Below are positions 5,860 through 43,847 of a stretch of 64,000 nt of DNA, piece by piece (position 1 is the first letter of the stretch; the number at the start of each line of letters is the position of its first letter). Origin of the DNA: Microbacterium sp. No. 7 (GTDB lineage Bacteria; Actinomycetota; Actinomycetes; Actinomycetales; Microbacteriaceae); NCBI RefSeq assembly GCF_001314225.1, contig NZ_CP012697.1, positions 2,542,001 through 2,606,000 on the forward strand. The letters are read 5' to 3'. The notes under the pieces were generated by a model, which was not told where the DNA came from, ran no database searches, and was given only the letters and a program-made list of their open reading frames with translations. The translations under genes were made by a program, and so were the position numbers.

Positions 5860-7525
5860 CGATTCCCAACTCCATCGGACGGACTACTTTCTCGACGAAC
5901 GCGATCTCCTCATCGGTCAAACGGTACTTCGCATACAAGTCAGAGTCGGTCCACTGCTTGGTCCATTCTTGAACAGGCACGAAGCCGTAGACCCTGCTCG
6001 TAACATGCTGGGAGGCCTTTCGGAGCTGAATCAACAAGCGCGTCAACCGGCAGGACAGGTACGAGAGCGCACTCTCTGCTTCCTCCTTCGAATTGAAGGG
6101 GCCGATGGCCAGGTATGTCTCCGTGGAGATACTCCCGGGTTCGCCGAGGAATGGCGTGCTGATGACGCGGTGGGGATACGAGTCCTTGTTGCCGGTACCC
6201 GGAGCCGCGTAACTGACGAAGATCTTCCACTTGTCGATCAACGCTTTGCCAGAAGCCACTTCGCTCCTCGCTATATAGCCGATGCCACCGTTCTGGTAGA
6301 CCTTCACATCCTCGGGGCCGGCGACGGACTTCGCTTTGAAGAAGGTCCGCAACCCGAACGCACGGGCCGAACTTACAAGTTCGCTGAAGCTCTTCTCGGC
6401 CGGGAGGGAAACGCTCGGCTGCCCTGCGAGCTCGACCTTCATGATCTTCTTCAGGATGGAAACACCCTCATTGAAGCGTATGAAGACATCGGCGCCTTCT
6501 TCGAGTAGCGGCCGGGTGTCGGTCGAGTCATCCCATCCTTTGAAGTGGGTCGTGACCACGCACTCTCCAGGATGGTCGCGATCCCAGAGGAAGTAGTTCA
6601 CGCCGCCCTTGAGGCCAACGCCCGGAAAGACATCGGCCGCACTGAGGAAGTCGTCTATCGAGCGAAGTCGTCCGTCTTTGAGCATCGACTCGCGGAAATC
6701 CTCCAATCCCTTGCCACCGGCAAACCATCTGGAGCGAATGACCATCGTGAGGAAGCGGGGATCAAGCTTCTTGGCTTGCTCCACGAACAGTTGATAGATC
6801 GGCGCAGCACTGGTTCCGTGTCCGCCGTCGCTGAGCTGGTAGGGCGGGTTGCCGATGATGACGTCGAACTGCATGTTGTCTCCGAACAGCTCGGCGATCC
6901 GAGCTTCGATGTCGTCAGTATGGATGAAGGCGTAGGCGTGAGTCTCAAGGTCGTCGCCACGTGCGTAGTCGTCCTCGGCTGCCCCGCAGTAGACGCACTT
7001 GCGACTGGTGTAGAACGCGACCTCTTCGCTCGTCAGAGGATCGGCTCGAAACTCGCGTTTGCCGCCGCCCCATGTGTGCTCGGTGCGCCCGAACCAGATG
7101 TTGCCGTCCTCAGTCGTGAATGACTTGGCGATCGAGTGCGGGCCGTTGGCTAGTTTCGAGCAGTAGACGCTGCGGCGTGCCAGCAGTGCGGTGAGTTGAG
7201 TGATCCCGATGCCGAACACCTGGCGGGTGAGGATGTGATCGACGCGTTCGGCCAAGTCGGGGATCACCAAGATCAACCCGTCGGTGAGTCGACGGACGAT
7301 CTCGCGGAGGAACACACCGGACTTTGTGAACGGATCGAGGAACGTGATGTCAGGATTGGCCCAGATGTTCGCACGGTCGTTGGCGTCTGCCCAGGCGGCG
7401 GCAAGCGTGTCGAGCATCTGGCTTGCGAACTCCGGCGGAGTGAAGACCTCATCGTTGGAGAGATTCGCGATGCAGGTCAAGACATCCGGGTTGTGCCCTC
7501 TGAGGGTAAAGGGTGCAAGGGTCAC
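5852..7525 (-). CDS. Eco57I-type adenine DNA methylase
   Basis: This 557-residue protein is an N6-adenine methylase of the Eco57I class. It has EVFTPPEFASQMLD near the start, FLDPFTKSGVFLREI (motif I, SAM binding, about 60) and IIGNPPYQLSDG (motif IV, catalytic, about 222). A CVYCGAAEDDY stretch suggests half of a zinc site. The C-terminal third is probably the target-recognition part. I chose the GTG at 7525 because GTGA overlaps the stop of the upstream small MTase gene. A longer ATG frame to 7699 would only read through that gene out of phase. Downstream it overlaps the helicase gene. It is complete and intact, unlike its upstream partner. Confidence 0.88.
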
Positions 7526-8018
7526 GCGGCGGCCTCGGCGATCTGATTGACGGTCATGGTCGGGTAGGTCTGCGCGGGAACGAACAGGTCGTCGTCGTCC
7601 AGTTCGCCGAACAGTGTGCCCTCGTACGAGGCTCGCTGGGTGAGATCGTCGTAGCGGAAGTCGCGCCTCTGGAACTTCCCTTTGCCGAGGTAGCCCCACT
7701 CAGGGAAGGTGATCGGCTGGCCACTCACCAAGGTCATGGTCAAGGCATCCCCCTGGACGATGTTCACGGCTAGGACCGCGCGCGCCGCTTGCGCCCACTG
7801 GTCATCGCTGCTGATGCCCAGAAACGTGTTGAACACCTCGGCTAGATTGTCGCGGCACTCTTCGGCGTTGTCTGCGAGGAGTTCGATGCCGTACGTGCAC
7901 ATCAGCGCAAACAGGGCGTAGTGGCGCTTCTCAAACTCGCTCTTGCCGTGACGGAGCTGGACAGTGACGAGCTTGCGGGCCAGGACCGGGACAAGGAAGT
8001 TTCCCGAGCCACAAGCGG
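7522..8018 (-). pseudogene. Small N6-MTase-fold protein of locus 1, C-terminal part (split gene)
   Basis: The minus-strand frame runs inward from 8018 with CGSGNFLVPVLARKL (MTase motif I), then FEKRHYALFALMCTYGIELL, and ends at a TGA overlapping the next gene. Its N-terminus, ending in RVLEPA, lies at 43700-43847. Joining 43847-43700, one 6-bp core and 8012-7522 gives 645 bp with no stop: a 214-residue protein in which EPA-CGSGNFL is rebuilt exactly. An internal ATG at 7902 could still start a 126-residue remnant, but that would lack the SAM-binding motif. No NPPY motif is present in either part, so even intact it is probably a companion to the Eco57I-type methylase. Confidence 0.93.
8013..8018. 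other. Left attachment core of the recombinase-trio element (AAGCGG)
   Basis: This is the 6-bp junction between the MTase C-terminal coding part and the element. The right junction has ACGCGG at 43694-43699, differing at one position. Either core rebuilds the codons for Pro-Ala-Cys in motif I. Tn554 is known to carry a different 6-bp core at each junction. The exact core length is inferred. Confidence 0.7.
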
Positions 8019-8045
8019 TTATGTGTACGTTCGGTCAGTGTCTCA
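8019..8045 (+). repeat. Left terminal inverted repeat of the element
   Basis: Reading inward, this end begins TTATGTGTA and ends TGTCTCA, with CGG in between. The right end, read inward from 43693, begins TTATGCGCA, has CGG and ends TGTCTCA. The two are imperfect inverted repeats of 27 and 23 bases and probably bind the recombinases. Confidence 0.72.
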
Positions 8046-8076
8046 ACCACTCACCCGATCGCACCCCTGGAGCACG

Positions 8077-9489
8077 ATGCACCTGCGTTTCGTAGACCAC
8101 CGCCTCACCGCCACAGCCGACCTCGACGAGCGCATAGGCGACCTCTACTCGCGCGGCCGCCCACTACCCGAGGGGATGCCGATCCTTCTCGACGATGGTT
8201 GGCGCCCGGTTGAGCCGTGGCTGACGTACTTCCGAATCGTCGCAGCGTCGGCAGACCGAGCAACACTTCGCGCCTACGCATACGACGCACGGCGGTTCGC
8301 CGCTTTCCTCGACGCACGGCGAACGGACGTGATCCATGCAACGAGTGACGACATCGTCGCATATCGCGAATGGCGGCTGAACGGCTCCGAGCGACCGGTT
8401 GCGCATACGACGTGGCAGCGCGACGTCGTCGTCATTCGTGGGATCTACCAGCTGCTCACGCAAACCGGGCAGATCCAGCGTGAGCCGTGGATCACCATCG
8501 GGAAGTCGTCGCCACTCCGAACGCGTTGGACGAGTGAGCCGGACATACGACCGCTGACGCAATCGCAGTGGCGGACGTTCCGTGAGGTCGGGCTCGGCGG
8601 ACGAACTGCGAGCGGCGACCTGGACGAAAGCTGGCGCGGTAGCACCAGCTTGCGCTCACAAGCGGGCGCCCAACTTGCGGTGACAACTGGGATGCGCCTC
8701 GGAGAGTTCTCAACTTTGCTCGATGTCGAAATTCCGTCGTCAATCGACAGCGGAGGCTCCCTCTTGCTCGAGGCATGCGCGAAGTATCAGAAGCGCCGCC
8801 GTGTCCATATTCCCCTCACGACCCTCCGTGCCGTCGACCTGTACCGCCAGACAGAGCGCCGCGCCGTCGTCCGCGCGTCGGCTGCCTCACTCTGGCGTCG
8901 TCGCGCGGAACTCTTCATCGTTGATGAGATAGACATGTCGGCAGGCGTCGTGCGGGGACGAGTGGATGGCCGACGGTCGAGATGGCGGCTGCACCAGCTC
9001 CCTCCGCGCCTGCGACGAATTGCCGTCACGGAGCGGAACGAGGGACTGGAAGCGCTGGGCCTGTTCGTCGGCCGAGGCGGTTTGCCGATCAGTAGGCGGC
9101 AATGGCATGCCACGTTCGAGGCAGCGAGCCGTCGCACGCTGGATCTCGCACAGGCAGAGATGGGCGGTCGGCGTGTCCGGATCACCCCGCACGATTTGCG
9201 CCACACATTCGCTGTCGTTCTCTTGAAGTCTCTGACCGAGGTCGCCCTCGCCCGCGAGGCTGAGCGACGAGCCGGCAACGTCGGACCGTCCACGCTCTCC
9301 GAGCACATCAGTATCAACCCGCGACTCACTGTCCAGCGGCTGCTCGGGCACTCGAATCCTGCGACGACGATGGTCTACCTGCGGTATGTGGAGGACACTG
9401 ATGCGCTCATTCAGGACGTGTTCGAGAGCTGGAGCGACGAGGCCATGACGTTCGCAGACGCGGTCCTCGCTGATCGGAACGCCGCGTGA
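8077..9489 (+). CDS. Tyrosine recombinase A of the trio (TnpA-like)
   Basis: This 470-residue site-specific recombinase would act on the element ends. An N-terminal SAM-like core-binding domain (about 70-190) precedes the catalytic domain. All expected residues are visible: Arg in TTGMRLGEF (about 205), HDLRHTFAV (about 371), and GHSNPATTMVYLRY (about 424), which supplies the second His and the Tyr nucleophile. The frame opens at 7921, inside the MTase coding region of the target. I placed the start at ATG 8077, just inside the element's end repeat, where the MHLRFVDHRL N-terminus begins. Its stop overlaps the next start (GTGA), so the trio is translationally coupled. Confidence 0.92.
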   Translation: MHLRFVDHRLTATADLDERIGDLYSRGRPLPEGMPILLDDGWRPVEPWLTYFRIVAASADRATLRAYAYDARRFAAFLDARRTDVIHATSDDIVAYREWRLNGSERPVAHTTWQRDVVVIRGIYQLLTQTGQIQREPWITIGKSSPLRTRWTSEPDIRPLTQSQWRTFREVGLGGRTASGDLDESWRGSTSLRSQAGAQLAVTTGMRLGEFSTLLDVEIPSSIDSGGSLLLEACAKYQKRRRVHIPLTTLRAVDLYRQTERRAVVRASAASLWRRRAELFIVDEIDMSAGVVRGRVDGRRSRWRLHQLPPRLRRIAVTERNEGLEALGLFVGRGGLPISRRQWHATFEAASRRTLDLAQAEMGGRRVRITPHDLRHTFAVVLLKSLTEVALAREAERRAGNVGPSTLSEHISINPRLTVQRLLGHSNPATTMVYLRYVEDTDALIQDVFESWSDEAMTFADAVLADRNAA

Positions 9490-11294
9490 GCAACGTCGAC
9501 CTCGCCCCGCGTCGGATGTCGTTCGTTCTGCCGACCACGAAGCTCGACGGAACGGTTGCCCCGCTCGACTTCGCGCACCCGATACTTGCCGCGGAGCTCT
9601 CCGATGCTTTGATCGAAATGCGTCGAACGATTGGTCAGTCCGATGGCACCGCGTATCAATACCGGCGGGCTCTCATGAGTCTTCTGCGCGGCATGCCTGA
9701 TGTGTGTCCGCGCACTGCGAGTTTGGCGTCGCCAGGTCTCGCCATCACCGACGCGTTCCACTTATGGGAGTCTGCGTTGGCTGGCAGTTACGCGCCCGAG
9801 AGCGCGATCCCGAACAGGTACGGCAGGCAGATCCGCGCTCTCGTCCGCGTCCACGCAGCCAACGGTCATGAGGTTAGCGAGGCCACGCTTCGTTGGGCCC
9901 AGGCGCGCGTTTTACACCAGGGCGGAGACTCCACGCCGCTGGATGAGTTCTCGAACGCGGAGCGCCTCGCCATACGTGACGCCTGCCGTGCCCGAATCCG
10001 CGACCTGGAGACGCGTCTTGCGGTCGGACGTCGGATCCTTTTCACCGGCGAGGACCCCCGAGTCGCAGGATGGAACCGTGGCGCCGATGTGCTCTGGGGC
10101 GTCCGCCATCTCGGCCGACTTCCGGGTACATCGATAGAGGCTGATCTCGTCCGTGCGTGCGGTGCTGGCGTGCTCAGCGACTTCCACGCGGACTTCGCAG
10201 GTGAGAAGTCCATGACCCACTCTGATGCTGGTCCGATCACGCGCCACCTGCTGACGCACCTCTATCCGACTAGTGAGGACCTCGTTGCGTTCCGCACGTT
10301 GCTGCAGTTAGAAAGCGGTGCGGCGCCGGAAGAGTGGTCGGGCGTGCGGCTCTCGGATATCGAGCGCACAACCGATTCCCTCGGCGTGAGACTCCGCAAG
10401 GCACGGGCGCACCGGACTCGAACCGTGCGCTGCACCATCACCGAGTCGGGCAACGGATGGCGAGCTGGGGATCTCATCCTTCGACTGATCGCCGTGACCG
10501 AAGCAGCTCGGGAGGAAGCGAATGAGGTGGGAGCCCCGGACGCAGACTCCTTGTTCCTGACTGTGCACCGAACCACGTCCAGACATCTCGTCGCGCGCCA
10601 GGAGTCATTCTCTCGTCGTCCGTTCACGTCGCTCTTGACGTCGATCTCTCCTGAGATATCCAGGCCATACGACTCCCGTCGGCTGCGCAAGACAGTGAAG
10701 AGTGTTCGGGCAGCAGTGCTCCGCAGCGCAGACGCCGCGGCGGGAAACGACCACAGCATCGCCGTTTACCAACGCCACTACGCGCAGTCGACGACGGTGC
10801 ACGTTCTGGCAGGCATCGCCGTCAACGCGGCGCAGCACCAGGTCTTCGATCGAGCACGAGGGCCACTCTTCGTCCATGCGGCAGCCAGCACAGTCGACGA
10901 TGCTGCGGGCGACCTCGCTGCTGCCGCCGCAGCCGAGCTGGCCTCGAGCACCACCGAGCACGGAATCAATGTGACTCAGTGCACGTCACCGTACGAATCA
11001 CCCTTCACGCCAGCGGGCCGGCTCTGCGAGCACCGGCCGTCCATGTGCTTTGCGTGCCCGAATGCCATCGTGTTCGCCGACCACCTCCCGCGAGTCCTCG
11101 CGTACCGAGAGATACTCCGCAATCACGAGAACGAGATGCCTCCAGCCCAGTTCGCGGCGGTACACGGCCAACAGCTGGTCAACGTCGAGCGCATTCTCCA
11201 CGAGTTCTCCACGACGGAGCTCGAGAATGCGCGGGCTGCGCACGAGACCGCCGCGGTCCATGTGCCACTCAGCCAGAGAGGAATCCACTTATGA
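9486..11294 (+). CDS. Tyrosine recombinase B of the trio (TnpB-like)
   Basis: This is the second recombinase, 602 residues, starting at a GTG that overlaps the stop of the first. The catalytic region is diverged. SRRLRKTVKSVRAAV stands in the HxxR position, and IAVYQRHYAQSTTVHVL resembles the final His/Tyr box. The first Arg box is not obvious. The C-terminus holds a conserved Cys cluster (QCTSP, LCEHRPSMCFACPNA) that may bind zinc; similar Cys patches occur in the larger members of such trios. Tn554 TnpB has about 630 residues, close to this length. It probably works in a complex with A and C. Confidence 0.85.
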   Translation: MSNVDLAPRRMSFVLPTTKLDGTVAPLDFAHPILAAELSDALIEMRRTIGQSDGTAYQYRRALMSLLRGMPDVCPRTASLASPGLAITDAFHLWESALAGSYAPESAIPNRYGRQIRALVRVHAANGHEVSEATLRWAQARVLHQGGDSTPLDEFSNAERLAIRDACRARIRDLETRLAVGRRILFTGEDPRVAGWNRGADVLWGVRHLGRLPGTSIEADLVRACGAGVLSDFHADFAGEKSMTHSDAGPITRHLLTHLYPTSEDLVAFRTLLQLESGAAPEEWSGVRLSDIERTTDSLGVRLRKARAHRTRTVRCTITESGNGWRAGDLILRLIAVTEAAREEANEVGAPDADSLFLTVHRTTSRHLVARQESFSRRPFTSLLTSISPEISRPYDSRRLRKTVKSVRAAVLRSADAAAGNDHSIAVYQRHYAQSTTVHVLAGIAVNAAQHQVFDRARGPLFVHAAASTVDDAAGDLAAAAAAELASSTTEHGINVTQCTSPYESPFTPAGRLCEHRPSMCFACPNAIVFADHLPRVLAYREILRNHENEMPPAQFAAVHGQQLVNVERILHEFSTTELENARAAHETAAVHVPLSQRGIHL

Positions 11295-13399
11295 CCGTCG
11301 ACCGCGGGCACTCCGCCGAACGGTTGTCGCCTTCAGCGAGCGAGTACTGGGCAGGCGATACGGCGGTCGTCTCTGATCGCAAACTCGAACATGACTACCC
11401 GATCCCATTGTTCGGAAATGAGGATCGTTGGGAGCTCGGTGCGCTGGGGTGGAACCCGGCGGCCGGCCGACACTCCTCCGTTCTGCTGTTCGACTCGTTC
11501 AGCGGCGCGTGGAACCTTCGTGCTCGCGAACTCGCGATGGCACTTCTCAACCCTGTACACCCCGTGCTGCGCGATCAGATGATCTACCTGCGAGCAACGC
11601 CTGCTCACGTGAAGACGATTCGCTCGAAGCTCGAAGGCTTGAAAAGGTTCGCCGCGTGGCACGCCGAGAACCTCCCGGGCCATCCACTCCGCGATCTCGA
11701 CCAGTCGCACCTCGACAGCTTCCTCACCGATGTCAAGAAGATGGGGATCCATTCGCGGACGAGGCAATCAGTCGATGCGGTCCGCGAACTCCACACATAC
11801 GCGACAGTCCTCACCGGCGGCGGCGTTCTGTTTCGCCCGTGGGGTGAGATCACGACGATCGCGCTCAGCGGACGCAAGTCGAGCACCGAGCTGAGCACGC
11901 CGGTGATCCCGCCGCAGGTTTGGTGGCCGTTGCTTCGGGCGTGCTGGCAGTACATCGATGTGTTCTCGCACGACATCTTCGCGGCCGCAGCAGAGTGGTC
12001 GGCGCTCGACCGACCCAGAGGCCAGCGCACGAGAGTTCAACATCCCGAAGAGGCTCTCGCGAGGTGGATCTCGAGGCCAGGGAGTGCAGTGCCGATGCAC
12101 CGCATGACGTATGGGCGATTCCGCGAGGGCGAGATTCATTGGACGCTCTTGTCCCTGCTCGTGTCAGACGGTCACAGCAAGCAGTTCTTCGCCGAACTGG
12201 ACCGGCCTGACATCGTGCGCCGACGTCAGGACGTCATTGAGGCGATCGCCGCTGGCACGCTCTCGACCGTCCGCGGGGGTCTCACGACACCGGCAACAGC
12301 GGTCGAACGCTCCGATGGATCCGTCGGACCATGGATCGACGGATTCGACCCGGCGACGATTCGCGCTCAGCTGAAGCTCCTCCGCAACGCGTGCTACGTC
12401 TTCTGCGCGGCTCTCACGATGATGCGCGACTCGGAGCTGCTGAGCATCAAGAAGGGGGCGCTCACGACGTCGTACGGCGCACCTGCTGTCACATCCCAGC
12501 TCCGAAAAGGTCGACGCGGAACACAGCGACGCAACTGGTGGATCATCGAACCCGTCGCGCAGGCAATCGTCGTCGCCGAAAAACTCGCTCTCGGTGACGA
12601 CGTTTTCGGCTCTGTTCGCCGTGAACACCGAGCGCAAGACGGAGCCGGTAGGTTCGATCGACATAGTGAGCTGAAACAGTTCATCTCGCAACTCAATGGT
12701 CAGGACCTCGACGCCGGTCTCGACATGATCCCCGCATTTCATCTCGCTCCGCACATGTTCCGGCGGACGATGGCCGTGATCACCGCGCAACAGCCAGACG
12801 GCGAGATTGCCCTCGGCATCCAGCTCAAGCACGCTGCTCGGCGCGCTGTCGCGAACGGCACGACCTCCGGGTACGCGAGCGAGACACCTGAATGGGCCGC
12901 GGAGTTCGAGCATGAGCTCCAAGAAGCCGTCGCGTCGCGGTTGGTCGGCGCCTGGTCTTCTCACCGTGACCACGAGATGAAGCTCGCGGGCGCGGGCGCT
13001 CAGCGGTTCCGAGACGAACTCAAGAAGATTGATGCAGTCGCGAGCAACGCGGTCAAAGTCGGCGACGAACGCACGCTGCGCACGCTCCTCCGCGATCGGT
13101 TCAGCACGCTCCGGTGGGGAACCGTCAATCACTGCCTCGGCATCCCCGACCAGGCAGCGTGCTTGAAAGGTCTGCCAGCCGACGCAATCGCCGGAGGTGC
13201 AGTCATGCCCAATCGGTGCCAGCCCACCACGTGTGGCAACTCCGTCGTCACGGAGGAGCACGCGTCGATCTGGATCGCGGAGGAACGCGACCTTGTCGCG
13301 AAGCTTCGCGACCGAAAGATGGCGGCACACAATCGCGAACAGCTCGAAGCCGAGCTCGAGGATGTTCGCCGAGTCACGAGGAAGTTCACGGATGCCTGA
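11291..13399 (+). CDS. Tyrosine recombinase C of the trio
   Basis: This is the largest recombinase, 702 residues from the ATG at 11291, which overlaps the previous stop (ATGA). The frame extends upstream to 10979, but that part only shadows gene B. Catalytic boxes are visible: MMRDSELLSIKKG (Arg), APHMFRRTMAV (HxxR) and LKHAARRAVANGTTSGYA (His and Tyr). A Cys-rich stretch (HCLGIPDQAACLKG, MPNRCQPTTCGNS) lies near the C-terminus, as in gene B. Three complete recombinases overlapping by four bases each are the signature of trio-type integrases. Confidence 0.88.
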   Translation: MTVDRGHSAERLSPSASEYWAGDTAVVSDRKLEHDYPIPLFGNEDRWELGALGWNPAAGRHSSVLLFDSFSGAWNLRARELAMALLNPVHPVLRDQMIYLRATPAHVKTIRSKLEGLKRFAAWHAENLPGHPLRDLDQSHLDSFLTDVKKMGIHSRTRQSVDAVRELHTYATVLTGGGVLFRPWGEITTIALSGRKSSTELSTPVIPPQVWWPLLRACWQYIDVFSHDIFAAAAEWSALDRPRGQRTRVQHPEEALARWISRPGSAVPMHRMTYGRFREGEIHWTLLSLLVSDGHSKQFFAELDRPDIVRRRQDVIEAIAAGTLSTVRGGLTTPATAVERSDGSVGPWIDGFDPATIRAQLKLLRNACYVFCAALTMMRDSELLSIKKGALTTSYGAPAVTSQLRKGRRGTQRRNWWIIEPVAQAIVVAEKLALGDDVFGSVRREHRAQDGAGRFDRHSELKQFISQLNGQDLDAGLDMIPAFHLAPHMFRRTMAVITAQQPDGEIALGIQLKHAARRAVANGTTSGYASETPEWAAEFEHELQEAVASRLVGAWSSHRDHEMKLAGAGAQRFRDELKKIDAVASNAVKVGDERTLRTLLRDRFSTLRWGTVNHCLGIPDQAACLKGLPADAIAGGAVMPNRCQPTTCGNSVVTEEHASIWIAEERDLVAKLRDRKMAAHNREQLEAELEDVRRVTRKFTDA

Positions 13400-13808
13400 G
13401 ATCACTGCCGGGACAGAACGCAAGCTACGCGACGCGATGGAGCGGCTGCTCAGTGGGGTGGCAGTCCGAACCGACGGCCGCATCAACAAGGAGAACCTTT
13501 ATCGCGAAGCCGGCGTCAGCCGCGCCACCATGAACCGTGCGACCGCAGTCATGGACGAGTGGGCTCGGCGCGTCGACGGGACCCAGCCCCGTGATCGCGA
13601 GATCGAGTCGTTGCGAAGTTCGCTTGCTGCCCGTACCGCCGAGATCAAGAAGCTCCGTGAGCGACTGAGCGACCTCGAAGCACATCTGACGATCGCCGCC
13701 ACCACCGTCGCCGAGCTGCACGTAGAGAATCAACTCCTGCGGGGCGACGACCCGACCCGTAACGTCACCCCGATGAAGCGCCCGGCGGGTTCAGTCGGCA
13801 GCCGGTGA
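13392..13808 (+). CDS. TnpC/DUF6262-like small coiled-coil protein
   Basis: This 138-residue protein overlaps the end of recombinase C by 8 bases. The N-terminal half has a helix-turn-helix (NLYREAGVSRATMNRA, about 37-52). The second half is a long coiled coil (about 70-115, leucine-spaced, IESLRSSLAARTAEIKKLRE). Tn554 TnpC is of similar size and position and influences the orientation and efficiency of transposition; actinobacterial relatives are annotated DUF6262. It is the last gene of the recombination operon. Confidence 0.8.
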   Translation: MPEITAGTERKLRDAMERLLSGVAVRTDGRINKENLYREAGVSRATMNRATAVMDEWARRVDGTQPRDREIESLRSSLAARTAEIKKLRERLSDLEAHLTIAATTVAELHVENQLLRGDDPTRNVTPMKRPAGSVGSR

Positions 13809-15450: not shown

Positions 15451-15858
15451 ATGCGCGAGATCTCCATCGCCGGCCGCACGATCACGGTCTCGCACGTGAA
15501 GACGACTCATAGCGACTACGGCGATATTCAGCGCTACCTCGCGGAGGTGTCGGACTCAGATGCCACGACGTACCTCACCATTCTGAGATCTAGCAGCACA
15601 GTTGATGCCCGCGTGGTGGGATCTGTCGTCGACACCGAACTCCTCCGCGGGCACGACGGCAGCGCAGATTCAGGACTACTGCGAGATCCTGCGATCCGCG
15701 CGTGGCGCGACGAAAACCGGCACTCGATTGACACCGCTATGCAGACCCTCGCTGACGAGATCGCCGGGCTGCCACCAGAGCCCGTGACCGACATCGAGCG
15801 AACGCTGCTCAGCGCGTTCGGCATCGATGCCGGAGCGGAGGAATCTCCCCGTGCGTGA
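15451..15858 (+). CDS. Uncharacterised 135-residue protein
   Basis: Not recognised. An ideal ribosome-binding site (AGGAGGAA, 15441-15448) precedes ATG 15451. The protein starts MREISIAGRTITVSHVKT, is acidic and soluble, and ends in a helical segment (VTDIERTLLSAFGIDAGAEE). Its stop overlaps the GTG start of the phosphoesterase gene, so the two are probably co-translated and may act together. Confidence 0.65.
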   Translation: MREISIAGRTITVSHVKTTHSDYGDIQRYLAEVSDSDATTYLTILRSSSTVDARVVGSVVDTELLRGHDGSADSGLLRDPAIRAWRDENRHSIDTAMQTLADEIAGLPPEPVTDIERTLLSAFGIDAGAEESPRA

Positions 15859-33699: not shown

Positions 33700-33768
33700 A
33701 GGAGTTCCGGGCGCCGCAAACCTATCGTGAAGGTACCAATAAGGAACACATCACGAAAGGGGTCCACA

Positions 33769-34014: not shown

Positions 34015-34108
34015 GGCCAACGGCCCCCGCGGGCCGCCTGCGGACATCCTTCCGACATTCCACTCTGCCGGTCTGCTGGCACGAGACCCAGAAAGGTCGT
34101 ACCCGAAA

Positions 34109-36112: not shown

Positions 36113-36217
36113 CGCCCATCCCGGGGCAATGGACCCACCCCGGACACCGGGCACCTCCAAGACTCAAAACAACGACGCGAACACCAAAATCAACACACGA
36201 AACAGAGGAGACCGACC

Positions 36218-36643
36218 ATGAGCGAAAAGAACTTCACCCTTGGCGACAACGTCGAGCATTTCACCATCGAGGACGTGGCCAGGGACAATCCTGACTTCCG
36301 GAAGGTGCTGTGGACCGGAGAACACACCCAGATCGTGGTGATGACCATTCCGCCCGGTGGCGAGATCGGAGACGAGGTCCACGAACACACCGATCAGATC
36401 CTGACCTTCGTCTCCGGAACCGGCGAAGCCGACCTCAATGGCCACACCCACCCCATCGATGCCGGTGACCAGTGCGCGGTACCCGCCGGTGCCCAGCACA
36501 ACTTCCGCAACACCGGCGACGAGCCGCTGGTGCTGTACACCATCTACAGCCCACCCGAGCACGCTACCGGCGCCGTATTCGCCACCCGGGAAGAGGCTGA
36601 CGCCGCCGAAGCCGCCGGTGAGGACGAACCGCCCCGGTCCTGA
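36218..36643 (+). CDS. Cupin-domain protein
   Basis: This 141-residue single-domain cupin has a ribosome-binding site (AGAGGAG) before ATG 36218. Motif 1 is EVHEHTDQILTFVSGTGEAD and motif 2 is VPAGAQHNFRNTGDEPL; the His residues form the metal site. Small cupins of this kind are common next to metal or redox stress genes. The acidic C-terminal tail (EEADAAEAAGEDEPP) is unstructured. Function unknown; it follows the ATPase by 105 bases. Confidence 0.85.
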   Translation: MSEKNFTLGDNVEHFTIEDVARDNPDFRKVLWTGEHTQIVVMTIPPGGEIGDEVHEHTDQILTFVSGTGEADLNGHTHPIDAGDQCAVPAGAQHNFRNTGDEPLVLYTIYSPPEHATGAVFATREEADAAEAAGEDEPPRS

Positions 36644-36719
36644 CCGCCACCGCCACGAAAGACCCACCCGGGACGTCGACGACGCGCCACCCAGTCCAGA
36701 TCAGAAGGAGATTCGATTC

Positions 36720-37625
36720 ATGTCCAAGGTTTATGTCTTCACCGGCTACGGCGGACCCGAGACCCAGCAACTGATCGAGGGGCCTGTTCCAACGCCCGGG
36801 CCCGGGGAACTGGCCATCGAAGTCCGAGCCGCCGGTGTAAATCCGGCGGACTGGAAGATCCGGGAAGGCCAGCTGGGCCGTCACTGGAGCCTGCCGGCGC
36901 CGATGGGCCGTGAAGCCGCCGGCGTAGTCACTGAGGTCGGCGACGGGGTCGAGGACTTCGCCGTGGGCGACGAGGTGCTCGGCCTGGTGGCGCCCGGGCA
37001 GGGTGGAATGGCCGAGCACACACTGCTGCGCGCCTCCACGACTGTGGCCAAGCCCGAGGAGATCTCCTTCGCCGACGCGGCCACCATCCCGGTGGCCGCA
37101 GCCACGGCCTACGACGCCACCCACCAGATTGAACTCAAACCTGGCCAGACCCTGCTACTGCTCGGCGCCGGCGGCGGAGTGGGACTGATGGCGACCCAGA
37201 TTGGTCGCGTGCACGAGTTCACGGTCATCGGCGTGGCCAGCGCAACCAAGCGGGAACTCGTCGAGTCAACTGGTGCCACCTTCATCGAATCCGGTCCAGG
37301 GGTGGCCGATCGGGTGCGGCAGGTGAGTGCCGACGGCCCCGACCTGATTGTTGATCTCGTCGGTGGCGATGCGCTGCGTGCTGTTGCGGACCTGGTGCCC
37401 GACCGAACCCGGATCATCTCCGCAGCGGACCCAGACACCGCCGCCGAGCTGGGCGGCCTGGCCCTGGCACGCACGGATGAGGCCATGGCCAAGATCACCG
37501 AGGTCATCCAATACGGACTGGTCGATCCCCACGTGGACGCTCAGTTCGCCCTTGATCAAGCAGATCAGGCGATTGCCGCAGTGGAGACCGGACACGCCGC
37601 TGGAAAGATCATCGTGGTGCCCTAA
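36720..37625 (+). CDS. Quinone-oxidoreductase-like zinc-independent dehydrogenase (MDR family)
   Basis: This protein has 301 residues with an AGAAGGAG ribosome-binding site. The GroES-like N-domain has VYVFTGYGGPETQQLIEG and AAGVNPADWKIREG. The Rossmann nucleotide site is LLLLGAGGGVGLMATQIG (about 142-160). No catalytic-zinc Cys/His set is visible, as in NADPH:quinone reductases. It probably uses NADPH to reduce quinones or enals formed under metal stress. It follows the cupin gene by 76 bases. Confidence 0.88.
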   Translation: MSKVYVFTGYGGPETQQLIEGPVPTPGPGELAIEVRAAGVNPADWKIREGQLGRHWSLPAPMGREAAGVVTEVGDGVEDFAVGDEVLGLVAPGQGGMAEHTLLRASTTVAKPEEISFADAATIPVAAATAYDATHQIELKPGQTLLLLGAGGGVGLMATQIGRVHEFTVIGVASATKRELVESTGATFIESGPGVADRVRQVSADGPDLIVDLVGGDALRAVADLVPDRTRIISAADPDTAAELGGLALARTDEAMAKITEVIQYGLVDPHVDAQFALDQADQAIAAVETGHAAGKIIVVP

Positions 37626-37809
37626 GGCTGGCTCCACCGACACCACCGGGGGCGTGGGTGATTAACCGGCAAATCCGAAGACGAACACATGACAACAGAT
37701 AACCACCATGGGAACGACCACCGGCACTGGGCCGCTTCCATTGGCTGACGAGCCGGGTGTCCTTAAGCCCGCCCGCCGCATACCCACACCGGGTAAAGAA
37801 AGGAGCATG

Positions 37810-40068
37810 ATGACGCGACCCGATCATCACCGAACGCCAGAATCACCCACACCTGAGCAGCACGGAGACCATCCCGACACGCACTCGGGCGCCACGGATC
37901 ACGGCGACAAGCACTCCGATGGCGGCGGTCACGACCATCATCACGCGCCTTTCCATTACGGCAGTCCAGATCATGACCCAGCACACCGTGACGAGCACGC
38001 CGGCCACCATGGCGATCACGGTCAGGCCGGCCAGCACCACGCCGGGCACGAGGACCACGGCGGTCATGCAGGCCACGGCGACCACGTCGGGCAGTTCAGG
38101 CGGCTGTTCTGGATCATGCTGGTTCTGGCGGTGCCAGTGGTGGGCTTCAACGACATGTTCGCCGACCTCCTGGGCTACCAGCTCCCCGATGCCGGATGGG
38201 TGTGGTGGGTCTCCCCAATTCTGGGCACCGTGATGTATGTCTGGGGCGGCCGGCCGTTCTTGACCGGCGCGGTTTCCGAGCTCCGCGCCCGCCAACCCGG
38301 CATGATGCTTCTCATCGGCCTGGCGATCACCGTGGCGTTCATCGCCTCCTGGGGCGCGAGTCTGCGAATTCTGGATCACGAGTTGAACTTCTGGTGGGAA
38401 CTGGCCTTGCTGGTGGTCATCATGCTGCTGGGCCACTGGATCGAGATGCGTTCCCTGGCGCAGACCACCTCCGCACTCGATTCCTTGGCTGCCCTGCTGC
38501 CCGACGAGGCCGAGAAGATCGACGGCGACGACGTGGTCACAGTCGCTCCGGCCGACCTCGCGGTCGGTGACATCGTCATCGTGCGCCCCGGCGCCTCCGT
38601 GCCCGCCGACGGCAGAATCACCGACGGCTCGGCGAGCATGGACGAATCCATGGTCACCGGCGAATCCAAGTCCGTCCGACGCGAGACCGGCGAGCAGGTG
38701 GTCGCCGGCACGGTGGCCACCGATTCAGGCTTGCGCATCGAGGTCACCGCGATCGGCGAGGACACCGCCCTGGCCGGTATCCAGAAGCTGGTGACCGACG
38801 CGCAGACATCATCCTCGCGCGCTCAGCGCATCGCCGACACGGCGGCGGCCTGGTTGTTCTGGTTCGCACTCGGTGCGGCCGCGATCACCGCCGTCATCTG
38901 GAGCTTCCTAGGGATGCCGGATACGGCGGTGGTACGGACGATCACCGTGCTGGTGATCGCCTGCCCGCACGCACTGGGGTTGGCGATCCCGCTGGTGGTC
39001 TCGATCGCCACCGAACGCGCCGCCCGCGGCGGAGTGCTGGTCAAGGACCGCCTCGCGCTGGAGTCGATGCGAACGGTGGACACCGTCCTGTTCGACAAGA
39101 CCGGAACCCTGACCAAGGGCGAGCCCAACGTCACCGGGATCGAACCGATCGAAGGGCACACCGAAGACGAGGTGCTGGCTCTGGCCGCAGCAGCCGAGAG
39201 CGACAGCGAGCACCCGCTGGCAAGGGCCGTGGTCGGGGCGGCGCGCGCCCGTGAGCTGGCCGTGGCCGAGGCGACCGACTTCTCCTCCTCGCCCGCTGTG
39301 GGTGTGAGGGCCAGGGTGGACGGCACCGTAGTCGAGGTCGGCGGCCCCCACCTCCTGGACCAGCATGGCCTCGACGAACTCGCCGTCGCCGATGAGTGGC
39401 GCACCGAGGGCGCGATCATCCTGCACATCCTTGCCGACAGCCAGGTGATCGGCGCGCTGCGGTTGGCCGATGAGGTCCGGTCCGAGTCCCGCGACGCCAT
39501 CGATGCGCTCCACGCTGCCGGTGCGCAGGTCGTGATGATCACCGGCGACGCCCAGGCCGTGGCCGACACCGTCGCCGCCGAGCTGGGCATCGACCGAGTC
39601 TTCGCCGGGGTCCGGCCGGAGGACAAGGCCGCCATGGTCGCCGAACTTCAGGGCGAGGGCCGCAAGGTGGCCATGGTCGGCGATGGAGTCAACGATGCCC
39701 CGGCACTGGCCCAAGCCGATGTCGGCATCGCCATCGGCGCAGGCACCGACGTGGCCATCGCCTCCGCCGGTGTCATCCTGGCCAGCTCGGACCCGCGCTC
39801 GGTGCTGTCGGTCATCGACCTCTCTCGGGCCTCGTACCGGAAGATGAAGCAGAACCTCTGGTGGGCCGCCGGCTACAACCTCATCTCCGTACCGCTGGCC
39901 GCCGGAGTGCTCGCACCGATCGGATTCGTACTGCCGATGAGCGTTGGCGCGATCCTCATGTCCGCCTCGACCGTGGTGGTCGCGCTCAACGCCCAGTTGC
40001 TGCGTCGGCTAGATCTGACTCCAGCCCACAGCACCTCCAGGTTCCTCGACCGCGATACGTCCGGGTGA
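37810..40068 (+). CDS. copB: CPH-type copper-translocating P-type ATPase (CopB-like)
   Basis: This protein has about 752 residues. The first 95 are extremely His-rich (HDHHHAPFHYGSPDHD and similar), a copper-binding tail typical of CopB. Motifs are SMVTGESKSVRRE (actuator), VIACPHALGLAIPLVV (CPH metal motif), DKTGTLTKGEP (phosphorylation), DSEHPLARA and MVGDGVNDAPAL. The last membrane pair contains YNLISVPLAAGVL and MSASTVVVALNAQLLRRL. CPH pumps export copper. Two ATGs are adjacent at 37807 and 37810; AAAGGAG fits the second better. No copper-responsive regulator is next to it. Confidence 0.92.
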   Translation: MTRPDHHRTPESPTPEQHGDHPDTHSGATDHGDKHSDGGGHDHHHAPFHYGSPDHDPAHRDEHAGHHGDHGQAGQHHAGHEDHGGHAGHGDHVGQFRRLFWIMLVLAVPVVGFNDMFADLLGYQLPDAGWVWWVSPILGTVMYVWGGRPFLTGAVSELRARQPGMMLLIGLAITVAFIASWGASLRILDHELNFWWELALLVVIMLLGHWIEMRSLAQTTSALDSLAALLPDEAEKIDGDDVVTVAPADLAVGDIVIVRPGASVPADGRITDGSASMDESMVTGESKSVRRETGEQVVAGTVATDSGLRIEVTAIGEDTALAGIQKLVTDAQTSSSRAQRIADTAAAWLFWFALGAAAITAVIWSFLGMPDTAVVRTITVLVIACPHALGLAIPLVVSIATERAARGGVLVKDRLALESMRTVDTVLFDKTGTLTKGEPNVTGIEPIEGHTEDEVLALAAAAESDSEHPLARAVVGAARARELAVAEATDFSSSPAVGVRARVDGTVVEVGGPHLLDQHGLDELAVADEWRTEGAIILHILADSQVIGALRLADEVRSESRDAIDALHAAGAQVVMITGDAQAVADTVAAELGIDRVFAGVRPEDKAAMVAELQGEGRKVAMVGDGVNDAPALAQADVGIAIGAGTDVAIASAGVILASSDPRSVLSVIDLSRASYRKMKQNLWWAAGYNLISVPLAAGVLAPIGFVLPMSVGAILMSASTVVVALNAQLLRRLDLTPAHSTSRFLDRDTSG

Positions 40069-40238
40069 ATACCCGACCGGACCGACATCAGATTCGCCAA
40101 GCCACGAAACAGGAGCAGACAGGATGGCCACCGAGACCAAAACACCGCTTGGTCAAGTTATGAACGGCCGTGGTTGGATGCGCCCCGCATGCACCTGTCT
40201 CAAACCTCTGAAGCGCCCCGGGTTTCGTGGAGGCTCGG

Positions 40239-40496
40239 TTATCTGGAACCGGCTCCGACGGGAACCTGTTCTCCAACGTAGCTGACGGGCTTGTGGGATG
40301 CCCAGTGGGCGGCCTCGAACTCGGCGGGCGGGACGTGTCCGATCTCGCCGTGCAGGCGCCGGTTGTACCAGTCGACGTATTCGGCGACCGCGATCTCGAC
40401 GTCGCGGACCGACGCCCACCCGCCCTTGGGGCGCATGACCGGGTTGCGGATGCACTCGGCCTTGAACCGCGAGTTCAGCGCCTCGGCCATCGCGTT
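40239..40496 (-). pseudogene. IS3-family transposase, C-terminal fragment
   Basis: Encodes the end of an IS3 OrfB: NAMAEALNSRFKAECI, then VAEYVDWYNRRLHGEIGHV. The upstream part, ending VGDSYD, lies at 41842-41925. The two halves join as SYD-NAMAEA exactly at the IS110 borders. A terminal-repeat-like sequence (CCCGGGTTTCGTGGAGGCT) lies at about 40220-40240. It is an older element, unrelated to the IS407 copies. Confidence 0.8.
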
Positions 40497-40512
40497 GAAG
40501 CTCCTATATTTG

Positions 40513-41583
40513 TCAACTCCCGATTTCGCCGGTCGTGGGGTGCGCTTTGACGAGGTGGTAGACCTCGCGGATCACATAGCGCTTGAGGCAGCGGATGATG
40601 TCTCGCTTGCTTCGGCCCTCAGCGGTGCGTCGGGCGACGTACGCGATGGTCGGCTCATGAAACCGCATCCTCACGATCACTGTCCGATAGATCGCGGCGT
40701 TGAGCTGGCGGTGGCCTCCGTGGTTGATGCGATGCTTCCCGCTGCTCATGCCCGAGCCTGTTGGGACGGGGGCGATGCCAGCGAGCTTGGCGAATGCGGC
40801 TTCGGAGTGGATCCGTTCCGGGTTGTCTCCGGCGACTATGAGGATTTCTGCGGCGGTGTCGACTCCGATCCCGAACTGCTCGAGCAGCTGCGGGGCGGTG
40901 CTGCGCACGAGGGCCTCGATGAGTTCTTCGAGTTCCTTGGCTTCCGCGTCCAGGGCAAGCCAGCGTCGCGCCAAAGTGCGGACCGAGTGGCGCAGCGCGT
41001 CGTCGGGAGTGTCCAGGTTCCGCGGTCGTGAGGCAGCGAGGTGTCGGGCGAGCTTCGGGCGTGACATTCTGTTCGTCTCGCGGCGCATCTCGTCCGTGCC
41101 GTGGACGAGCATCGCTTTCATCATGATCATCGTCGAGGAGCGGTTCACGACCGCGGAATCATGCACAACTTTCAACTGGCGGATCATCTCGACGGCGCCG
41201 TCGGCGGTTTTCGGAATCGCGGTCGCGAATCCGGCGAGCACGCTTCGCGCGGCGTTCTCTGCGTCGAGAGTGTCGGACTTGCCGTTCGCTCGCCGAAGCC
41301 GACGGTCAGGCCTGCCCGCTTCGACCACCTTGATGTCGTGCCGACGGAGGAACGATGTCAGGGTGGCCCCGTAGGACCCGGTGCCTTCGATCCCGAACGC
41401 GAGGATCCGACCGAACCCTTCCGCCCAAGCGAGTAGCTGCCGAAACCCACCGGTGTCGGTGGGGATCGTGAGCGTCGAGAGGATGCCACCGACCGTGTCC
41501 ATCACGGCTGCGACGTGGATGTGTTTGTGCGTGTCGACGCCGACCACAATATGGCCCGATCGCGTCGAGGTGAGATCTGTCAT
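40513..41583 (-). CDS. IS110-family DEDD transposase
   Basis: This recombinase has 356 residues. The N-terminal RuvC-like DEDD domain has IVVGVDTHKHIHVAAV (Asp), FGIEGTGSYGATL (Glu) and GKSDTLDAENAARSVL (two Asp). The C-terminal transposase_20 domain has FGIGVDTAAEILIVAGDNPE and PTGSGMSSGKHRINHGGHRQ with the conserved Ser region. It appears complete. Members of the family act with an RNA encoded in the element's non-coding end. Confidence 0.93.
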   Translation of the reverse strand: MTDLTSTRSGHIVVGVDTHKHIHVAAVMDTVGGILSTLTIPTDTGGFRQLLAWAEGFGRILAFGIEGTGSYGATLTSFLRRHDIKVVEAGRPDRRLRRANGKSDTLDAENAARSVLAGFATAIPKTADGAVEMIRQLKVVHDSAVVNRSSTMIMMKAMLVHGTDEMRRETNRMSRPKLARHLAASRPRNLDTPDDALRHSVRTLARRWLALDAEAKELEELIEALVRSTAPQLLEQFGIGVDTAAEILIVAGDNPERIHSEAAFAKLAGIAPVPTGSGMSSGKHRINHGGHRQLNAAIYRTVIVRMRFHEPTIAYVARRTAEGRSKRDIIRCLKRYVIREVYHLVKAHPTTGEIGS

Positions 41584-41841
41584 CGTGTCCTGTCCTTCTG
41601 CCGGTTAGCGTGGAATCACGTTGTCGCCGGCGGGTGGACAGGACTGTCACGGGGACGCTCTCAAAGTCTGCTCCAGGCTCCTATCAGGTCACGCCCGACC
41701 GGCGGCAGCGCTCACTGCAAGCCCGGCCGGACGGTCGACAGATCAACGCAAAGGCACCATTCGGGCCGATCGTAAGCAAGGGTCAGACCGCGCCGGCCGG
41801 GACTACCGAATCAGTCTCGACCCGGCAGAAACAAACTGACA
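41584..41841 (-). ncRNA. Probable IS110 bridge-RNA region
   Basis: This is the 258-bp non-coding stretch between the deduced element border and the transposase start. In IS110-group elements such as IS621 the bridge RNA, which specifies target and donor, is encoded here. No coding frame with family support lies in it. The RNA borders and its two guide loops were not resolved by eye, so this is placement by analogy. Confidence 0.5.
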
Positions 41842-41925
41842 GTCGTAGCTGTCGCCGACCGTTCCGACGGACGCGACCGCGTCGGCTTCGGCGAGTCGCT
41901 CGGTGTAGCGAATCGCACGGTATTG
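41842..41925 (-). pseudogene. IS3-family transposase, internal fragment
   Basis: Encodes QYRAIRYTERLAEADAV followed by ASVGTVGDSYD, the conserved catalytic-domain stretch of IS3 transposases just before the final Glu region. It is the upstream half of the fragment at 40239-40496. Beyond 41925 the homology stops. Confidence 0.78.
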
Positions 41926-41968
41926 ACTGGGCTCAACCGGTGGAAGCAACACCTGATCGGAGGGTGTT

Positions 41969-42182
41969 GTGGGAAGACCATCGAACTGGATGAAGGAAGT
42001 GACCGGGCGAGCGCCGATGCGGTCACCCGGCGCACCATCGCACCCGCGAGTGAAGGAGCGTGAGTTCTGGACGAAGATCAGCACCGGCTTGCTCCCGACG
42101 GAGGCGGGCGTCGCGATCGGCGTGGCTCCAGTCTTGGGGTCGCGGTGGTTCCGACAATCAGGCGGTATGTCACCGTATTCAT
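41969..42182 (+). pseudogene. IS30-family transposase, N-terminal fragment
   Basis: From GTG 41969 it encodes RAPMRSPGAPSHPRVKEREF, FWTKISTGLLPTEAGVAIGV and LGSRWFRQSGGMSPYSL, the N-terminus of actinobacterial IS30 transposases. It is cut at 42182 by IS407 copy 3. The catalytic domain is absent. Confidence 0.78.
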
Positions 42183-42198
42183 TGGGCCGCCCCCTTCG

Positions 42199-43011
42199 TT
42201 AGGTCCAGGCGATCTGTGAGTCGTCGGTTTCCATTCGATGGGTGCACTCCCGAGCGTAGTCGGCGGGGGCGATATAGCCGAGCGAGGAGTGCCGGCGGTG
42301 ATGGTTGTACTCGTTCTTCCAGTCGCCGATCACGACCTGGGCGTGCAGGAGTGAGTAGAAGCTGTTGATGTTGAGGCACTCGTCGCGGATCCGGCTGTTG
42401 AACGACTCGACGTACCCGTTGCGCCACGGAGAGCCGGGCGGGATGTAGGACAGCCCGGTGCGGGTGCCGGCCCAGTCGGCCATCGCTTCGCTGATGAACT
42501 CCGGTCCGTTGTCCGATCTGAGCACAGCCGGGGCGCCGCGCACGGCGACGAGGTCCTCGAGGTGGGCGGTGAGGCGGTCGGCGGTGATCGACCGTTCGGT
42601 GAGCCCGCCGATGCACTCACGGGTGTGCTCGTCGACGATCGAGCAGATCTTGATCGGGCGGCCCTGCTCGTCCGCGTCGAACTGGAAGTCGACGGCCCAC
42701 ACCACGTTCGGTGCGTCTGCTGTAGGCGGGCCGACGGTGGAGGACCCGACGCGTTTGCGGCGACGGCGTTGCGGGACCCGGAGCCCTTCGTCGCGCCAGA
42801 GGCGTTGGATCTTCTTGTGGTTCACGGCCCAGCCCTCGGCGCGGGCGTCGTGGTACGCGCGTCGGTACCCGTAGCGGGGGTGGCTCTTCGCCCAGGCGCG
42901 CAGCCAGTCCCTGAGCGCCCGGTCCGGGTCCGCGACGGTGTCGCCCTTGCGCGGGCGCCGGTAGGCGGAGCGTGAGAGCCCGACCAGACGGCACGCCATC
43001 CGTTCGCTCAC
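42199..43011 (-). CDS. IS407-group OrfB transposase (copy 3)
   Basis: 270 residues, the same sequence as in copies 1 and 2 with intact D, D, E residues. It is read in the -1 frame after orfA, by slippage on GGGAAAC as in copy 1. Confidence 0.93.
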   Translation of the reverse strand: MSERMACRLVGLSRSAYRRPRKGDTVADPDRALRDWLRAWAKSHPRYGYRRAYHDARAEGWAVNHKKIQRLWRDEGLRVPQRRRRKRVGSSTVGPPTADAPNVVWAVDFQFDADEQGRPIKICSIVDEHTRECIGGLTERSITADRLTAHLEDLVAVRGAPAVLRSDNGPEFISEAMADWAGTRTGLSYIPPGSPWRNGYVESFNSRIRDECLNINSFYSLLHAQVVIGDWKNEYNHHRRHSSLGYIAPADYARECTHRMETDDSQIAWT

Positions 43012-43061
43012 CTGCAGCTTGCGCTTGAGGTGAGCGACGGCGGCGCGGCGTCTGTCCGGGC

Positions 43062-43346
43062 TTAGAAGTTTCCCTCAGCCAGCTCCTTGAGCGCCGCCTT
43101 CTCCAGCTCCGCCTCCGCGAGCAGCCGCTTCAAGGTTGCGTTCTGCTTCTCGAGCTCCTTGAGCCGTTTCGCGTCGTCGGCCTTGAGCCCGCCGTACTGG
43201 TTCCGCCACCGGTAATACGTCTGCTCGGAGACTCCGAGGTCCCGGCACACCGCCGCGATGTCGGCGCCGTCGGCGAGCATCCTGTCGGCCTGCCCGAGCT
43301 TGCGGACGACCTGCTCCGGGGTGTGCCGCTTCCTGCTGTTCGTCAT
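43062..43346 (-). CDS. IS407-group OrfA (copy 3)
   Basis: 94 residues, identical to copy 1: N-terminal HTH followed by a leucine-rich coiled coil. It is complete with its leader and terminal repeat. Confidence 0.93.
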   Translation of the reverse strand: MTNSRKRHTPEQVVRKLGQADRMLADGADIAAVCRDLGVSEQTYYRWRNQYGGLKADDAKRLKELEKQNATLKRLLAEAELEKAALKELAEGNF

Positions 43347-43429
43347 GATCTGACCAGTCTCCCTGCCCGCGACCGCGGACGACAGGACGACTCACATAAC
43401 AACCGGACCTACGAAACGGGGTCAGCCCA

Positions 43430-43582: not shown

Positions 43583-43670
43583 CACTGAACCGCCGATAGG
43601 TTGAGAACGAATCAGGCGATGTCTACGCGGCCAGGCCATCTTGCTCCAGCGCGTTCCGACCGTTGTCTCG

Positions 43671-43693
43671 TGAGACATCCGACTTGCGCATAA
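43671..43693 (-). repeat. Right terminal inverted repeat of the element
   Basis: Read inward from 43693: TTATGCGCAAGTCGG then ATGTCTCA. It matches the left end at TTATG, CGG and TGTCTCA. The 107 bases between the HNH stop and this end contain no gene. Confidence 0.72.
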
Positions 43694-43699
43694 ACGCGG
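43694..43699. other. Right attachment core of the recombinase-trio element (ACGCGG)
   Basis: This is the 6-bp junction between the element and the MTase N-terminal coding part. It differs from the left core (AAGCGG) at one base. On the minus strand both give codons for Pro-Ala before Cys. Confidence 0.7.
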
Positions 43700-43847
43700 G
43701 CTCAAGCACGCGAGCGTCGATCCGCTCGGACTCGTGCTTGACGAGATCAAGCATGTCCTCGACCATCCACCCCGGCGTGAACACCTCGCCGTGATCGGCA
43801 ACGCGCTGCTTGGACTTCACCAACCGCTGGGCTTCACTCAGCGTCAT
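43700..43847 (-). pseudogene. Small N6-MTase-fold protein of locus 1, N-terminal part (split gene)
   Basis: Starts MTLSEAQRLVKSKQRVADHG, then EVFTPGWMVEDMLDL, the usual N-terminus of N6 methylases, and reaches RIDARVLEPA at the element border. In the present DNA the frame runs 24 codons into the element and stops at 43623, giving a 74-residue product without motif I. The gene overlaps the end of the HTH gene by 14 bases and is preceded by GGAAGGGGAG. Its continuation is at 7522-8018. Confidence 0.93.

Follow-up and report, generated by a model that had tools for sequence, protein, structure and literature searches.

In the genome of Microbacterium sp. No. 7 (4.83 Mb in three contigs), we found a mobile element of 35,675 bp that splits the gene for a 214-amino-acid (214-aa) methylase at the codons of motif I, the S-adenosylmethionine (SAM)-binding motif, and whose close relatives mostly lie at the same motif in methylases of several kinds. 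The stretch of DNA analyzed, bases 2542001 to 2606000 of contig C1 (64,000 bp), is referred to below as the window. We interpret the element, with a probability of about 0.9, as a site-specific island that is moved by its own ginABCD-like genes and is aimed at motif I of N6-adenine DNA methylases. The parts of the window that bear directly on this interpretation are as follows, with attL denoting the recombinase end of the element and attR its far end.

43700 to 43847, minus strand: N-terminal part of the split 214-aa methylase, ending in RVLEPA
7522 to 8012, minus strand: C-terminal part of the split methylase, starting with CGSGNFL and reading on as CGSGNFLVPVL
8019 to 43693, plus strand: mobile element, 35,675 bp, from TTATG to CATAA, with ends kept in relatives
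8013 to 8018, minus strand: attL 6-bp core CCGCTT, the target's own, same in the empty allele L083
43694 to 43699, minus strand: attR 6-bp core (footprint) CCGCGT, carried in, different from L083 and identical in the second copy of the element on contig C2
8019 to 8045, plus strand: recombinase-side terminal arm, TTATG-N15-TGTCTCA
43671 to 43693, plus strand: far-side terminal arm, TGAGACA-N11-CATAA, matching the recombinase-side arm as an inverted repeat at 10 of 15 nucleotides (nt)

A preliminary description of the window had proposed that the minus-strand frames at 43847-43700 and 8012-7522 make up one methylase gene, and this was borne out: RVLEPA and CGSGNFL join to give motif I as EPACGSGNFL, and the predicted joined length of 645 bp is exactly 214 codons plus a stop. 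Uninterrupted homologs were looked for and found. Most homologs of the C-terminal part are 211 to 216 aa long (best 120 of 8,000 scored), and all seven whose sequences were read are continuous across motif I, with RVLEPACGSGNFL unbroken. The gene occurs in 8 of 119 sampled genomes of the same genus, this one included; apart from this genome and G974, motif I is uninterrupted in the six same-genus genes scanned, all of which read EPACGSGNF. A natural empty allele, locus L083 of genome G939 from the same genus, matches both flanks of the element without a break: its bases 1 to 1496 align with 45191 to 43696 of the window at 99.8% identity and its bases 1493 to 3486 with 8018 to 6024 at 99.75%. 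The window is longer than L083 by 35,681 bp, that is, by the element and one 6-bp core. Since L083 holds CCGCTT only, the recombinase-side core of the window is native and the far core, CCGCGT on the strand of the gene, was carried in. The two 6-bp cores of the preliminary description are thus both present, but they are not equivalent. At the level of sequence, these alignments show the boundaries of the element, its entry in a single insertion, and the native or carried origin of each core.

A single insertion is also shown by another copy of the element elsewhere in this genome. GinB, one of the recombination proteins described below, was found twice, both times at 100%, and the whole element recurs without internal mismatch on contig C2 (135,111 bp), which is perhaps a plasmid; the alignment of the two copies over 35,719 bases has 10 mismatches, all in the flanks and the near core. 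The C2 copy cuts an Eco57I-domain methylase at the same codons (...RVID-P, element, TCGSGAFLF). An identical element in another methylase at these codons argues that insertion there is more than chance. All 11 copies that sit in methylases (see below) have a methylase half next to their recombinase end, which would fit a different account: the element would carry the methylase pieces as cargo, or the gene would be naturally split, and no whole gene was ever entered. This account is refuted by the different methylase halves that lie outside the identical ends of the window and C2 copies and by the uninterrupted allele L083 with its 99.8% identical flanks, and the homologs read are continuous; we give it a negligible probability. 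It is also very improbable that we are dealing with one element to which assembly gave chimeric flanks. Two identical 35.7-kb copies are hard to assemble in a three-contig assembly, and the draft contigs L017 and L053, which carry related elements, end one base outside the element end, where repetition of the element in those genomes might be expected to stop a contig; yet in our genome the two halves that flank each copy belong to a single gene and are in frame, and the flanks in the window match an independent genome across the join.

The attL core is CGACCT in the C2 copy versus CCGCTT in the window, while the attR core is CCGCGT in both. We considered one copy as the direct donor of the other and rejected this, since the rule described for SE elements requires the attR core of the daughter to equal the attL core of the parent, and CCGCGT matches neither attL core; the two copies therefore look like siblings from a third source. 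Two relatives of the C2 methylase (L102 in G969:C2 and L103 in G933:C9) match only residues 213 to 566 and show no motif I from which the native codons of the C2 site could be read.

Four genes likely to move the element sit at its recombinase end, on one strand and with overlapping ends, in a layout common to the other elements.

8077 to 9489, plus strand: ginA-like tyrosine recombinase, 470 aa (PF00589, 1.1e-11; PF02899)
9486 to 11294, plus strand: ginB-like gene, 602 aa, no Pfam match
11291 to 13399, plus strand: ginC-like gene, 702 aa, no Pfam match in this protein
13392 to 13808, plus strand: ginD-like gene for a small protein, 138 aa, no Pfam match

In an alignment of 33 sequences, residues R207, H372, R375, H425, and Y434 of GinA are invariant. 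The structural model of GinB (predicted local distance difference test [pLDDT], 67.8) resembles XerH, Cre, and lambda Int (probability, 1.00; best E value, 5.1e-3), and that of GinC (pLDDT, 77.5) resembles XerH (probability, 1.00; E value, 1.3e-2); PF00589 is present in the GinC relatives P0294 and P0302. These results point to three of the four gin products being tyrosine recombinase-like, GinB and GinC by fold only. A ginD-like gene occupies the same position in nine other copies, that on C2 included; the DNA stretch examined in G1059 did not include ginD.

To collect relatives, we scored 7,994 candidates with GinA and retained 181 proteins at E values of up to 1e-3. GinA occurs in 7 of 295 sampled genomes of the same genus, this one included (the element of G1129 lies at the same place as that of G584, and the two were counted once), and in 7 of 301 genomes from the family of a mycobacterial relative. 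In the organism's own family, GinB was recovered from 1 of 299 genomes, namely, this one, and in its own order, GinA was recovered from 1 of 297; in the family of a Nesterenkonia relative, the count was 1 of 216. A search of genome contigs with GinB only and a search of phage genomes returned no relative, viral contigs gave at least three weak and partial matches, and the GinA alignment matched at least 10 loci in genome contigs, of which four weak, partial ones (L023 to L026) were not used. Among plasmid records, 17 carry GinA, and the DNA of 12 was read. In a tree of 29 rows, one clade of 14 rows (support, 100/99) contains every row seen to sit in methylases; of the 15 rows outside it, the six read have no methylase motif adjoining the element. 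Adding the C2 copy gives 15 insertions in the clade, of which the two at the ends of draft contigs, L017 and L053, are unreadable, leaving 13.

Eleven of these 13 readable insertions fall in methylase motif I, in methylases of five kinds: (i) 214-aa methylases (window and G974), (ii) an Eco57I-like methylase (C2), (iii) MmeI-type methylases (W01, G584, G1059, and G583), (iv) type ISP methylases (W02 and G582), and (v) HsdM (G1053 and G1107). Pfam searches with five C-terminal halves returned Eco57I for C2, MmeI for W01 and G583, Type_ISP_C for W02, and N6_Mtase for G1053; the remaining targets were assigned by the resemblance of their halves. In all 11, the C-terminal half is the one toward which the recombinase end is turned. 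The 6-kb gin ends of G974 and G1107 are 99.2% identical, with a 214-aa methylase and HsdM as targets, respectively, and those of G1053 and G584 are 95.8% identical, with HsdM and an MmeI-type methylase; those of G1053 and G1107, both in HsdM, are 86.4% alike. As far as DNA comparison goes, one recombinase set is thereby shown in several methylase families. Conversely, W01 and G584 occupy the same MmeI locus (flanks 89 to 92% alike), but their gin ends are only 71.5% alike and their far cores differ, which suggests that the two elements reached these codons independently. The search for other elements at these codons was thus productive, both within the genome and among relatives of the clade. 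The sole N6_Mtase (PF02384) match found in this genome, L110 (G000:C1:3876954-3877565), reads LEPSCGEAAFL and is unoccupied.

At both ends of the elements, TGAGACA...CATAA points outward, and in the seven elements compared, the arms agree as inverted repeats at 9 to 10 of 15 nt (mean after shuffling, 4.0). Both ends were found in nine copies, of 35,675 (twice), 31,338, 27,535, 17,758, 20,943, 21,440, 39,295, and 17,866 bp; the far end of W02 was located only when mismatches were allowed, and that of G1059 was not found. The last 200 bp of seven elements has a GC content of 57 to 64% versus 61 to 66% for the whole element. Read in the frame of motif I, the recombinase-side cores give Pro followed by Ala, Thr, or Phe in all nine copies, and the far cores give Pro-Ala in seven, Pro-Cys in one (G584), and Phe without Pro in one (G583). 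That the target's 6 bp lie at attL and the carried 6 bp at attR is directly observed in the window by way of L083. The same rule appears to hold for G1053 and G1107, judging by HsdM relatives: of the nine with a readable motif, six read DPAVG and three have Cys (L099 lay outside the scan, and L100 gave no motif match), and the near core of both elements gives Val as the next residue, as in those six, which the far core would not. It likewise seems to hold for G583, W02, and G584, where the core codons suit the family of the gene entered. The footprint of W02, whose target is a type ISP gene, reads Pro-Ala, and that of G583, whose target is of the MmeI type, contains Phe, as ISP genes do in that place; these footprints, of six bases each, suggest that the elements pass between methylase classes. 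With Pro-Ala or Pro-Cys in the far core of eight of the nine delimited elements, hopping from methylase to methylase is suggested more generally.

The mechanism that we envisage is as follows. The target would be the DNA encoding motif I, (D/E)-P-x-x-G, whatever the methylase family. A circular form would bring the inverted end arms together with a 6-bp spacer between them, and this spacer would recombine with six bases of the target: the last two of the Pro codon, the three of the codon after it, and the base that follows. The 6 bp of the target would remain at the recombinase end and those of the circle would end up on the far side, the pattern described for SE and Tn554 (PMC10214605). The methylase gene is cut in two, and the element brings in defense genes. 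We infer the circle, the recombinase chemistry, the movement, and the loss of methylase function from the arrangement of the DNA.

We also asked how well the target is defined by its DNA, using a weight matrix of the 30 bases adjoining the recombinase end. Each methylase group in turn was omitted from the training, and the matrix was scored along the two strands of seven element regions (1,014,268 positions with seven true sites among them, rather than whole genomes). For 6 of the 11 sites (window, G974, C2, W01, G584, and G583), there was no other equally good place, and for G1059 and G1053 there were two each. Conservation at the first, second, and third codon positions of the target is 0.74, 0.74, and 0.62; a wobble-tolerant reading of the target by the recombinases, considered on these values, was dropped, since protein constraint explains them.

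Several observations weigh against the interpretation of the element as an island aimed at methylase motif I. (i) The matrix leaves 37, 48, and 684 equally good places for W02, G1107, and G582, respectively. (ii) Two of the 13 insertions, those of G735 and G645, interrupt a helicase gene (of the ResIII/DEAD kind in G735), exactly at TATPG, which we take to be helicase motif III; the elements start near 1333 (L045, G735) and 1341 (L046, G645), and their recombinase end faces the N-terminal part, the opposite of the methylase insertions. The recurring landing site that the preliminary description had anticipated in methylases is therefore real but not exclusive. (iii) The far core of G583 and the recombinase-side core of G1059 give no Pro codon, and in C2, W01, and G974, either core would make a plausible motif and may be the native one. 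(iv) The fold matches of GinB and GinC have E values above 1e-3.

The split gene belongs to a restriction locus, whose other members and the cargo of the element are listed here.

43834 to 44103, minus strand: HTH_17 gene, directly upstream of the split methylase
5852 to 7699, minus strand: Eco57I-type methylase of the same locus (PF07669, 2.4e-34)
3289 to 5859, minus strand: ResIII helicase of the same locus
1480 to 3258, minus strand: GmrSD/HEC-05-like protein of the same locus
13817 to 14458, minus strand: NYN-domain protein (PF01936), 94 to 95% in G584, G974, G1053, and G1107 of the same genus
15827 to 16660, plus strand: metallophosphoesterase-like protein (weak Pfam match below the curated cutoff), kept in five other elements
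16906 to 20559, plus strand: HmaA helicase of the Hma defense system (PADLOC, 1,294 bits)
20520 to 22865, plus strand: HmaB methylase (DUF1156; PADLOC, 902 bits), interrupted by an IS3-type element
22858 to 24107, plus strand: IS3-type insertion sequence (IS) inside hmaB, one of three copies
24162 to 24641, plus strand: C-terminal remainder of HmaB, matching the C-terminal end of hmaB in relatives
24647 to 28036, plus strand: HmaC ATPase (DUF499; PADLOC, 872 bits)
28105 to 30123, plus strand: OLD/PtuA-like ATPase
30397 to 43429: accessory cargo region
30397 to 31494 and 42180 to 43429: further IS3 copies
32006 to 32818: ZIP transporter
33932 to 36112 and 37708 to 40068: P-type ATPases
36438 to 37625: ADH
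40513 to 41583: IS110

On the minus strand, the locus thus reads HTH_17 gene, methylase up to RVLEPA, the 35.7-kb gap, CGSGNFL, Eco57I-type methylase, ResIII helicase, and GmrSD/HEC-05-like protein. Within the element, hmaA, hmaB, and hmaC are present in order, and as hmaB is broken by IS3 in the window and C2 copies alike, the Hma system of this strain may be inactive. G584, G974, G1053, and G1107 share the Hma genes (HmaA, 91 to 94%; HmaC, 93 to 94%), and W01 has a divergent set (HmaA, 43%; HmaC, 36%). In W02, the gene for a type III-type methylase (680 bits) adjoins that for an HKD-Snf2 helicase, and G583 has the same helicase family in the same layout by size and order, with the methylase-sized gene placed by size. 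Defense-type genes are found in all eight distinct delimited elements. None of the other elements compared contains a close counterpart of the ZIP transporter, either P-type ATPase, or ADH. Three further features were seen in passing. The three IS3-type copies are near identical, and a 134-bp fragment outside the element (990 to 1123) matches part of the IS at 95.5%. A 150-bp stretch just upstream of hmaA (16715 to 16864) is 84.7% identical to 43948 to 44097 in the HTH_17 gene, so that a related small HTH stretch is common to the carried and resident defense loci. In G1107, hmaA is split by about 18.6 kb (joined coordinates 17674 to 36263, L074 to L075); the two ends of this insert resemble inverted repeats, and it is probably a nested transposon.

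We compared the element with known systems as they are described in the cited reports. In GInt elements (PMC5385486), too, one end holds four genes for recombination, the cargo is variable and includes restriction-modification systems, the model is a 6-nt staggered cut, and site specificity is high. GInt elements are further described as having a short AT-rich 3' end, a circular intermediate, and a need for all four genes. Sites named for them are the 5' end of an ABC transporter gene, ssb, and the end of a ribonucleotide reductase gene, and insertion is thought not to fully inactivate the target (PMC5385486), in contrast to the cutting of the conserved center of several unrelated methylases here; a term search of the main text of that report did not find "methyl." By gene order and size, the element may be called GInt-like. 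SE elements also have a 6-bp spacer flanked by inverted end motifs, keep the 6 bp of the target at attL and place those of the circle at attR, and occur in copies on chromosome and plasmid (PMC10214605). Their circularization is described as leaving no empty site. They are reported from Gammaproteobacteria, the likeness is one of end and core pattern, and "methyltransferase" is absent from the main text of that report. The Tn554 family also copies a 6-bp core to the far side and has tyrosine recombinases plus a small protein, but Tn554 is without a Tfp/GinC counterpart, and the archetype of the RIT element, three recombinases of 315 to 410 aa, differs from the 470, 602, and 702 aa seen here (PMC10214605). 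By analogy, the element probably works like SE, Tn554, and GInt, and would be a GInt/SE-like island with a new class of target. Its Hma genes follow the order HmaA, HmaB, HmaC of the candidate defense system Hma (PMC8565338), with PADLOC scores of 872 to 1,294 bits, and differ in the IS3 copy that breaks hmaB.

Methylase genes are already known as landing sites for another class of recombinases, the serine integrases. Related Tn1806-like integrative and conjugative elements (ICEs) of Streptococcus agalactiae enter and split several methylase genes, namely, hsdM, an snf2-methylase gene, and an Eco57I methylase gene, as shown by conjugation (PMC12942858), and serine-triplet ICEs sit in hsdM (PMC4701971, PMC7563491). 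The Tn1806-like ICEs differ in having three serine integrases and 4-bp TGGG repeats, in being conjugative, and in belonging to another phylum (PMC12942858); motif I is not named in the passages on Tn1806-like and serine-triplet ICEs in these reports (PMC12942858, PMC4701971, PMC7563491). Literature searches, which covered few subscription papers, found no tyrosine recombinase island aimed at methylase motif I. As far as searched, what is new is the class of recombinase, the precise codons in methylases of five kinds, the footprints, and the defense cargo.

What the element gains from its target is a separate question. There is, in our estimate, an even chance that it follows DNA that is merely conserved in methylase genes and that disabling restriction gives it no benefit, a proposal that competes with selected disarming and not with the target itself. 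Recombinases read DNA, and the same clade is also found at another conserved motif, that in the helicase gene. In type IIL, ISP, type I, and Eco57I systems, cleavage depends on the methylase part, which we count against that proposal: the identified targets are of kinds with methylase-dependent cleavage, although survivorship alone could also give that. We tentatively suggest, at a little under even odds, a lineage specialized on the SAM-binding motif of methylases that disarms resident restriction and installs its own defense, with a footprint that records the codons of the source methylase and a sister branch that switched to helicase motif III.

On the interpretation of the element as an island aimed at methylase motif I, a conserved enzyme motif common to nonorthologous defense genes would serve as the address of a mobile element, and a single recombinase set can therefore gain access to many restriction systems, whether chromosomal or on plasmids. 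The movement of such an island would be tied to defense turnover, with one system cut and another brought in within one step, and the carried footprint would be a readable hint of the previous site. Together with the serine integrase ICEs of Streptococcus, these islands look like a convergent pair, and selection for the disarming of restriction therefore becomes a testable question.

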